From the NCBI GenBank assembly GCA_028706165.1, contig JAQWBY010000003.1, positions 1 to 42,107 on the forward strand: a DNA stretch of 42,107 nt, given 5' to 3'. The notes under the pieces are model-generated. The model was given only the letters and a program-made list of their open reading frames with translations, did not search any database and was not told the DNA's origin. The DNA is from Lentisphaeria bacterium (GTDB lineage Bacteria > Verrucomicrobiota > Lentisphaeria > Oligosphaerales > Oligosphaeraceae). The translations under genes were made by a program, and so were the position numbers. Positions 28,137 through 37,894 of the stretch are shown here, piece by piece (positions within the stretch are counted from its first letter, which is position 1; each line of letters opens with the position of its first letter).

Positions 28137-28253
28137 GATCGGACTGATCAGACCGATGGGACGTACGGGACGTATGGGACGTATAGGTCTCATGCGTCTT
28201 ATACGTCCTATACGTCCTATACGTCCTATACGTCCTATACGTCCTATAGGTCC
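28137..28253. repeat. 9-bp tandem array A, 13 units
   Basis: (gatcggact)(gatcagacc)(gatgggacg)(tacgggacg)(tatgggacg)(tataggtct)(catgcgtct)(tatacgtcc)x5(tataggtcc). Confidence 0.95.
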
Positions 28254-34864: not shown

Positions 34865-35548
34865 TTATGCCTGAGGCAGGGACGTTGTGGTTTCTTGTTT
34901 GGCTTTCATGTCGTCTACCGCGCGGTGGACGATGTCGAGGATGTAATTGGTCAGGAAGGTCTTGTCATGGTTGGCGCTGAGGCTGAAGCGGCCTTTGCCG
35001 TTGAAGAATCGCTGTTCGACCTGGGTCTGAATGGGCAGGAAGAGACAGAGACTGTGGTAGGTATAACGGATTAGGCTGATGTTGGCCTCCGTTGCGGCCG
35101 GGCCGAGCAGTGCCGAGAGCATGCTGGTCATGCGATCTTCGTAGCTTTTGATGAGCTTTTCGCGGTCGGGAATCTGCGGGATGAGATGGTGATTTTGGGT
35201 GTCGACCAGGTCGCGCATGTGCATCCAGTTGATCTGAGACATGGTGCTGTTGTAGGTGTTGTCCAACAAAATGTCAATGTGGATGCGCAGAGCTTGCCAG
35301 GGATCGCGTTCAATGAAGTCCCAGCAGCGTTGCATGCTGTCCCGGCGGACCTGGCGGGCATAGTCGCGCACGGCCTGGTAAAAGCCGGCCTTGTCGCCGA
35401 AATAGTAGTTGATGGCGGCAATGTTGCTGGCGGCTTCTTCACAAATTTCCCGGACGGTTGAGCCGTCGTAGCCCTTGCTGGCGAATACTTTCAAACCAGC
35501 CGCCAACAGACGCTCTTTGACATCGGGCGCTTTGTCCTCTTTGGCCAT
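34865..35548 (-). CDS. TetR/AcrR family transcriptional regulator
   Basis: VKERLLAAGLKVFASKGYDGSTVREICEEAASNIAAINYYFGDKAGFYQAV helix-turn-helix; first gene of the efflux operon. Confidence 0.92.
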   Translation of the reverse strand: MAKEDKAPDVKERLLAAGLKVFASKGYDGSTVREICEEAASNIAAINYYFGDKAGFYQAVRDYARQVRRDSMQRCWDFIERDPWQALRIHIDILLDNTYNSTMSQINWMHMRDLVDTQNHHLIPQIPDREKLIKSYEDRMTSMLSALLGPAATEANISLIRYTYHSLCLFLPIQTQVEQRFFNGKGRFSLSANHDKTFLTNYILDIVHRAVDDMKAKQETTTSLPQA

Positions 35549-35702: not shown

Positions 35703-35834
35703 GGACGCATGGGACGTATGGGACGTATAGCACTGATCAGTTTGATCTTTGGTCTTTTGTCGCGGACGGATCGGACGGATCGGACGGATCGGACGGATCC
35801 GATTGCTGATCGGTCTGATCGGTCTGATCGGTCC
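35703..35834. repeat. 9-bp tandem array B (left part of the interrupted array)
   Basis: ggacgcatg/ggacgtatg/ggacgtata (35703-35729), (ggacggatc)x4 (35764-35799), (gatcggtct)x2 + gatcggtcc (35808-35834). Confidence 0.93.
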
Positions 35835-35835
35835 A

Positions 35836-36284
35836 ATGCTCTTCACTTAGTGTACCGGCAATCCTTGGTGAGGAGTTGATTTGTGACCGTTAGCGTGACC
35901 ATTCGCCGAGGTTTTGAGCGCCGAAGGCGCGACCTAAGATAGCCCAGGGCAAGCGCCCGTAGGGCGCGTCGCCCTGGGTAGGGGCCCTACCAGAAACGAA
36001 GCCCTGTAAGGGCGGCCTAAAAGACCTTTGGCAAGGCGCAACATTTATTTCCATTGCCTCTTTGGCCCCAGTCAGCTTCGCCGACTGGGGCCAAAGAGGC
36101 CGAGGAACACGACCTTGGTTGGCGCTTTACCCAGGGCGGCGCGCGCTTTCAGCGCTGCTTGCCCTGGGCTGGTATGTTTCGCGCTTTCAGCGCTTCTGCC
36201 GCTTCGCGGCAATAAATGCCGCGATCATAACAGGCTGTTTTGCTGAAGCTTAAGGCACTATGAAATTTGTTAAGTGAAGAGCAT
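35836..36284. mobile_element. MITE-like multi-hairpin element with 14-bp terminal inverted repeats (copy 2)
   Basis: ATGCTCTTCACTTA (35836-35849) and TAAGTGAAGAGCAT (36271-36284) are perfect inverted repeats bounding a hairpin-rich, apparently non-coding segment related to 17134-17546. 9-bp array on both sides. Confidence 0.65.
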
Positions 36285-36285
36285 C

Positions 36286-36550
36286 GGTCTGATCGGTCTG
36301 ATCGGTCTGATCGGTCTGATCGGTCTGATCGGTCTGATCTTCTTTCTTGTTGTCGCGGACGGATCGGACGGATCGGACGGATCGGACGGATCGTCGGTCT
36401 GATCGGTCTGATCGGTCTGATCGGTCTGATCTTCTTTCTTGTTGTCGCGGACGGATCGGACGGATCGGACGGATCGGACGGATCGTCGATTTGATCGGTC
36501 TGATCGGTCTGATCGGTCTGATCGGTCTGATCGGTCTGATCGGTCTGATC
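36286..36550. repeat. 9-bp tandem array C with higher-order structure
   Basis: (ggtctgatc)x6, ttctttcttgttgtcgc, (ggacggatc)x4, gtc, (ggtctgatc)x4, ttctttcttgttgtcgc, (ggacggatc)x4, gtcgatttgatc, (ggtctgatc)x6. Confidence 0.96.
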
Positions 36551-36727
36551 GGTGGAGAAAAAAAGGGCGTGGTGTGAGAGCCAAGCGGGAAAGAGACAAT
36601 ATACTAAAGGACGGTCCTGTTCTTGCTTCTGGAATATGGCAAGAAACAGGGCTAGTTGGCCTGTCCGTCGGGTGCCGGAAGCGGGTTAGTCATAAGCGGT
36701 TTGGGTGGTGTTTTTTTGGAGACCTTG

Positions 36728-37894
36728 ATGTTTCCGTATTTGTCTGAGTATTTGCTTGAGATTTGGGGTCCCTTCCGGCTTTTCGGATCATATTTGGTGT
36801 TGTTGAGCCTTGGCGCTTTTGCGGGTGCGGTGGCCAACTGGCTGTTGCTGCCGCGGTTGTGGCGTTATATGCCGCGGGATCAGGGCAAGCCCTTTGTGAA
36901 GAATTCCGAGGAGGCGAAGGGCAAGCCGACGGGAGCGGGCAGCATTGTGGTGGGCATTAGTCTGCTGCTGTGGATCTTTCTGATGCCGGGGACTTGGCGG
37001 ATGTGGGGCATGGCCGTCTGCCTGTTTCTGGTCATGCTTACCGGTTTTGGCGATGACTGTAGCGAAAAGCCTTGGAGCGAAATGAAGAAGGGCCTGCTGG
37101 ACTTCGTTATTTCCTTGGCGGCAGCGGCGATATACTGCCAGTGCGACAGCATGGTCATTTGGTTGCCGCTGATCAAGGGCAGCGCCGCCGGCGGCGGTTT
37201 TTTGGTGCCGGCGTGGCTGTACATTCCCGGCGCGACGGCTCTGCTGTGGCTGAGCATCAACGCGGTCAATTGCAGCGACGGCGTGGATGGCTTGGCGGGC
37301 TCCCTGACCATGCTGGCCCTGTTCACCATGGGCGCGTTTTTGTATGCAGTGACTGGTCACATGGACATCTCCAAGTACCTGCTTTTGCCGCATTACGCTG
37401 ATGGCGCGCGTTGGGCAGTGCTGATCGCTTGCGTGGTGGGCAGTCTGGGCGGCTATCTCTGGCACAACGCCAAGCCCAGTTCGGTGCTCATGGGAGATGC
37501 CGGGTCCCGCTTCCTGGGCTTGTTGCTGGGCATGTCGGCCTTGGCGTCAGGCAACCCCGTTCTCGTGCTGGTGGCCGCGCCGATGCTCCTGATCAATGGC
37601 GGTACTGGCCTGGTCAAGCTGGTCATGCTGCGGACGCTCAAACGCCTGGGCTTCGATGTGCGTCAGCCCTTGCGCAACGTCGTCAATCCCCAGCGGGTGG
37701 AAAATTTTGCTTCGGACGACGACGTGAAGAAGCAGCTTGGGCTGGTTCGGCTGGCGCATCGGGTGCGTTTTCCGTTGCACGACCACTGCCGGAAGAACCG
37801 GAATTGGTCAGACACGCAGGTGCTGGTGCGTTTCATGCTGCTTCAGGGCTTTTTGACGCCCCTCTTGATTCTCCTAATTGTGAAACTGCGATAA
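36728..37894 (+). CDS. MraY/WecA-family (glycosyltransferase family 4) phospho-sugar transferase, MraY-like
   Basis: Multi-TM. GFGDDCSEKPWSEMKKGLLDF, NAVNCSDGVDGLAGSLTML, MGDAGSRFLGLLLG, FPLHDHCRKNRNWSDTQVLVRF in the position of the MraY PxHHHFE-type motif. ATG at 36728; the ORF track extends to 36656. Confidence 0.82.
   Translation: MFPYLSEYLLEIWGPFRLFGSYLVLLSLGAFAGAVANWLLLPRLWRYMPRDQGKPFVKNSEEAKGKPTGAGSIVVGISLLLWIFLMPGTWRMWGMAVCLFLVMLTGFGDDCSEKPWSEMKKGLLDFVISLAAAAIYCQCDSMVIWLPLIKGSAAGGGFLVPAWLYIPGATALLWLSINAVNCSDGVDGLAGSLTMLALFTMGAFLYAVTGHMDISKYLLLPHYADGARWAVLIACVVGSLGGYLWHNAKPSSVLMGDAGSRFLGLLLGMSALASGNPVLVLVAAPMLLINGGTGLVKLVMLRTLKRLGFDVRQPLRNVVNPQRVENFASDDDVKKQLGLVRLAHRVRFPLHDHCRKNRNWSDTQVLVRFMLLQGFLTPLLILLIVKLR

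Follow-up and report, generated by a model that had tools for sequence, protein, structure and literature searches.

Members of the IS4 subgroup of the IS4 family have ends of the form -AATR--------WTW---- and generate direct repeats of 10–13 bp, and strong target-arm specificity exists in some of them (PMC2266710). Intergenic repeat families can serve as landing sites for insertion sequences, as is the case for ISPa11, ISPpu9 and ISRm22, which target palindromic REP sequences (PMC1525189); within the IS4 family, ISRm22 has been placed in the IS4Sa subgroup (PMC2266710). A MITE tied to a short tandem array is known from Porphyromonas gingivalis, namely the intergenic, multicopy BrickBuilt, whose minisatellite sits inside the MITE (PMC4596501). 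A further published feature is Acido-Lenti-1 (RF01687), which was presented as a probable RNA found in Acidobacteria and Lentisphaerae (PMC2864571).

In this study, we analysed a window of 42,107 bp, contig C184 of an assembly from the genus Oligosphaera (G000; 4.28 Mb in 536 contigs, 85% complete), in which a TIR-bounded element interrupts a 9-bp array. Like BrickBuilt, the element is bacterial, intergenic, multicopy and associated with a short tandem array, but here the MITE sits inside the array. As with the REP-targeting insertion sequences, its landing sites lie in an intergenic repeat family, although the repeat is a 9-bp tandem array that supplies a site once per unit instead of a palindromic REP. 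The resemblance to the IS4 subgroup comprises ends of the form CAATG...TTA, a 12-bp duplication and, beside a matching end in a sister genus, a gene with Nterm_IS4, DDE and YREK; unlike those insertion sequences, this copy is only 453 bp and gene-free, and its cognate enzyme was not found in the same genome. The element body also has a match to Acido-Lenti-1, a family that has Lentisphaerae among its Rfam sources, although here the motif makes up one module of a transposable element, not an independent RNA gene. The element works like, and by the tested criteria belongs to, the MITEs with IS4-subgroup ends. Our reading, which we hold with high confidence, is that 35834–36286 is a MITE of IS4-family (IS4-subgroup) type that was placed by a trans-acting transposase with targeting of the array.

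The element and the array that it interrupts

The features of the locus are as follows, with the evidence for each in brackets.

34865–35548, minus strand: TetR-family regulator (TetR_N, PF00440), left neighbour (Pfam scan, ORF)
35703–35833, no strand: left array part, GACGTATGG, GACGGATCG and GTCTGATCG units, all GWCNNATNN (sequence and TRF)
35822–35833, no strand: left copy of the target-site duplication, GTCTGATCGGTC, 12 bp (flank comparison)
35834–36286, plus strand: non-autonomous element (MITE), 453 bp, no ORF of ≥100 aa (multicopy search, empty site, fold)
35834–35849, plus strand: left TIR, CAATGCTCTTCACTTA (sequence, comparison of copies)
35917–35949, minus strand: second Acido-Lenti-1-like hairpin, in the opposite orientation to the first, 32.8 bits, below threshold (inverted repeats I2 and I3)
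36049–36107, no strand: central hairpin, arms 36049–36076 and 36080–36107 (inverted-repeat search, I4; fold)
36130–36194, plus strand: Acido-Lenti-1 RNA motif (RF01687), 40.3 bits against a gathering score of 37 (covariance-model match)
36271–36286, minus strand: right TIR, read inward CGATGCTCTTCACTTA, its inner 14 bp perfect relative to the left TIR (sequence, copies)
36287–36298, no strand: right copy of the target-site duplication, GTCTGATCGGTC, 12 bp (flank comparison)
36287–36553, no strand: right array part (TRF)
36728–37894, plus strand: MraY/WecA-like glycosyl transferase family 4 (Glycos_transf_4, PF00953), right neighbour (Pfam scan)

The first-pass annotation had described a 9-bp tandem array interrupted by a TIR-bounded segment, and both the array and its interruption are borne out by the sequence. 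The composition of the array differs from the single resuming unit described there, in that its left half mixes GACGTATGG, GACGGATCG and GTCTGATCG, and a 92-bp higher-order repeat was detected by TRF at 36302–36523 within the right half. The unit GWCNNATNN fits every 9-bp array that TRF identified in the window, these being at 28156–28253 and 35703–36553. Array and element had also been said to fill the divergent gap between tetR and the mraY-like gene; they occupy most of its 1.18 kb (35703–36553 only), with a part left over.

Perfect 14-bp inverted repeats (ATGCTCTTCACTTA/TAAGTGAAGAGCAT) are present at 35836–35849 and 36271–36284, exactly where they had been placed. The segment bounded by them, 35836–36284, had been taken as the element, but since the outer CA...TG is common to other copies, the boundary was moved outward by 2 bp on each side, to 35834–36286. 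The termini are accordingly CAATGC...GCATCG, with a TIR of 14 bp that is perfect, or 16 bp when the variable outer pair (CA...CG in this copy) is included. The ORF listing has no ORF of ≥100 aa within 35834–36286, in agreement with the earlier statement that no transposase ORF lies inside. In the computed fold (-241.5 kcal/mol, z -12.9), the whole element forms one long hairpin. Together, the TIRs, the short length without a transposase gene, the multiple copies with target-site duplications and the empty site in a relative are the features by which the element was classed as a MITE.

Copies, empty sites and the target-site duplication

A search of G000 revealed 18 full-length matches to the element, itself included, with lengths of 420–473 bp and identities of 79–100%, along with many partial matches. 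At ≤1 mismatch, the TIR has 75 matches in this genome (41 forward and 34 reverse), whereas the same pattern read backwards, used as a control, has none in either orientation; other copies thus bear the same TIRs. Outside the Oligosphaeraceae, exact TIR matches in a scan of public genomes were at about the level expected by chance for a 16-mer in that collection. In sister genera, the same TIR bounds elements with unrelated bodies (L258, L272, L156 and L178 in G010; L261 and L281 in G022), one of them of 93 bp, and many of these adjoin GWC arrays. Such sharing of a TIR by different bodies would be expected were they all mobilised by a single type of transposase.

The most direct evidence for insertion at this locus comes from Oligosphaera ethanolica DSM 24202 (G002; NZ_JAUSVL010000001.1, a single contig of 5,729,305 bp), which belongs to the same genus as G000. 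Its orthologous locus has flanking stretches with 95% and 94% DNA identity and an uninterrupted array between them, and the element is absent, there being nothing within ≤4 mismatches of the TIR. An array without the element at the equivalent O. ethanolica locus means that the element was inserted here. In G001 and in more distant genera, the intergene is not alignable. The proposal of a non-autonomous, MITE-like insertion is consequently supported by the shared TIRs, the empty site and the 12-bp duplications described below, and the array being older than the insert is likewise supported by GWCNNATNN arrays having an order-wide distribution that includes genomes without such a TIR.

Within the window the duplication cannot be separated from the array by eye, because with a period of 9 bp a 12-bp duplication (9 + 3) looks like one of 3 bp. 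We compared flanks at lengths of 8 to 15 bp for 21 full-length copies. Exact 12-bp duplications were found in 15 of the 21, and the mean flank identity was 0.91 at a length of 12 and ≤0.40 at every other length. A paired test of 12 bp against the self-similarity of the arrays gave p = 0.037, with the in-array copies alone barely separating 12 bp from 3 bp; as arrays are self-similar, this part of the evidence is modest. The distinction rests mainly on copy L015, which lies outside any array and is flanked on both sides by GATCGGCTGGTG. Its counterpart in O. ethanolica has one copy of the 12-mer, GATCGACTGGTG, with one base different, and has neither element nor array. This non-array copy and its empty site prove the 12-bp length, and a first reading of a 3-bp GWC duplication was dropped after it. 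Target-site duplications, which the first-pass annotation had proposed looking for at other copies, are therefore present and are 12 bp in length. Copies L133, L161 and L162 lack a good duplication.

A second subfamily of about 469 bp, with the TIR CAATGCTCTTCACATA, was observed outside arrays in both genomes (O. ethanolica L224 7748, L226 9850 and L238 9626; G000 L061, L070 and L074), where it forms a composite with the constant flank TTTCATAGGAG and with TAACCACCCCGGTGGGG, a module lying upstream. The orientation of this subfamily follows the replichore in 39 of 41 O. ethanolica copies; the GC skew of that genome changes sign near 2.2–2.3 and 5.0 Mb. One O. ethanolica copy (L235 9597–11314) has a passenger-gene-like ORF of 365 aa between its TIRs.

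Array targeting and the probable IS4-type transposase

The insertion targets yielded the consensus GWCNNATNNGWC, a palindromic GWC-NN-AT-NN-GWC. Among 19 targets, G1, C3, A6, G10 and C12 are each present in 18 and T7 in 17. Because the GWCNNATNN unit supplies GWCNNATNNGWC, each unit of an array contains one target site. Copies in period-9 DNA account for 17 of the 21 full-length copies, compared with 1.05% of sampled positions. Matches to arrays of four GWCNNATNN sites number 532 in G000 and 539 in O. ethanolica, and they are also present in genomes of the order without such a TIR match (72 in G016 and 114 in G018). The arrays are thus more widely spread than the element, and the element targets them. 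Backed by the fixed phase of insertion, we infer that the arrays are hot spots through sequence preference, not mere intergenic tolerance.

Across the order, 9-bp arrays occur in many genera with GWC and AT fixed and the other four positions varying between units. The reversed control for the array, CWGNNTANNCWG, is abundant in G026 (58), G028 (44) and G006 (14), where another type of 9-bp array may exist.

The TIR CAATGCTCTTCACTTA fits the ends of the IS4 subgroup, having AATG at positions 2–5 and TTA at 14–16, and the 12-bp duplication falls within the 10–13 bp range of that subgroup. A transposase with a matching TIR-like end, which the first-pass annotation had suggested seeking, was identified in G009:C4, from a sister genus that belongs to the same taxonomic family, where the end CAATACTCTTCACTTA lies 107 bp before the start of the gene. 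The protein has matches to Nterm_IS4 (PF13006), DDE_Tnp_1 (PF01609) and NF033592, and the YREK motif, Y(2)R(3)E(6)K, is visible in its sequence as YHERWEAELLYDEVK. The gene adjoins GTC repeats with a 9-bp period; the contig covers just one end of the G009 element, since its edge cuts off the far end.

Searches of G000, G001 and the complete O. ethanolica genome yielded no transposase of IS4 type with this TIR, and for that reason the enzyme that moved this copy can only be deduced: judging from the G009 sequence, it was probably an IS4 transposase of that type, which G000 probably has or recently had. Multicopy insertion sequences are often missing from incomplete assemblies such as G000. Several candidates were rejected as the source. 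Those PF01609 elements of O. ethanolica whose ends were read have different termini (e.g., ACAGCCGTCCCATA and CCTAAAAGTCGGCTA); a homologue of the G009 transposase in G018 (72%) is without such a TIR and looks like an immobile remnant; the 365-aa ORF within the 1.7-kb TIR pair of O. ethanolica (L235) does not read as a transposase, so that pair was not taken as an autonomous copy; and the TIR-like matches of L227 enclose other genes. A complete IS4-family insertion sequence was observed at L342 955–2844 (G019:C514), with the TIR CAATGTCATTAACTTAAGG, a transposase of 452 aa and ends related to those of the element.

By the mechanism that we propose, a transposase acting in trans would recognise the TIR at both ends of the element and would insert it after staggered cleavage of a target of 12 bp, with a preference for GWC-NN-AT-NN-GWC. 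Every unit of the GWCNNATNN arrays of the host would provide such a site, in intergenic DNA that should tolerate insertions with little harm, and the element would accumulate in the arrays.

Competing readings and the origin of the arrays

The arrays that flank nearly every copy on one or both sides could also be seen as part of one composite unit that spreads together with the element, with no insertion into a pre-existing array, and in the second subfamily, element and constant flank do move together as a composite. We consider this very improbable for the element studied here, as the array units vary between copies (e.g., GTCTGATCG, GACCGATCA, GTCCTATAG and GACGTAGGG), arrays are found in genomes such as G016 and G018 that have no such TIR match, O. 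ethanolica holds the array at this locus without the element, and the empty site of the non-array copy is array-free. IS110/IS1111-type and tyrosine-recombinase elements are known for strict target selection within repeats, and an apparent duplication of just three bases (GWC) at first sight suited an element of such a kind, with sub-terminal repeats and site-specific insertion that leaves no true duplication. That reading is exceedingly improbable given a 12-bp duplication seen directly against an empty site, ends and a duplication length that fit IS4, and a TIR-bearing gene that encodes a DDE transposase.

Another possibility is that the element has been retained for its function, as an RNA gene or as a regulatory element, with its spread being selected and not parasitic. 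The RF01687 match above threshold and the very stable fold are in its favor. However, Acido-Lenti-1 has at least 147 matches in G000 and at least 146 in O. ethanolica, as many as is typical of repeats, the orthologous O. ethanolica intergene lacks the element, and the long hairpin takes in the TIRs, as in many MITEs; selection for an RNA function is therefore unlikely. A good part of the Acido-Lenti-1 matches lie inside TIR elements, and these locations, together with the match counts, suggest that the motif is mainly a repeat in these genomes. An array-targeting MITE of IS4-subgroup type remains our preferred reading of 35834–36286.

The correspondence of the target code to the array unit is the unusual part of this case, and in a short literature search we found no published example of it. 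The 9-bp arrays may themselves have been built or maintained by repeated IS4-type transposition and evolved into landing pads, with the fixation of GWC and AT representing the target code, although we regard this as decidedly unlikely. By one such route, an element would insert and later be lost through the GWC overlap of 3 bp, and the array would thereby gain a single 9-bp unit.

The locus provides a clean bacterial case of a transposon with a tandem array as its target, whose specificity is evident directly from the genome sequence. In addition, our results suggest that, in Lentisphaerota, the Rfam family Acido-Lenti-1 resides for the most part in repeats and mobile elements, a point to be considered when it is annotated as an 'RNA'.
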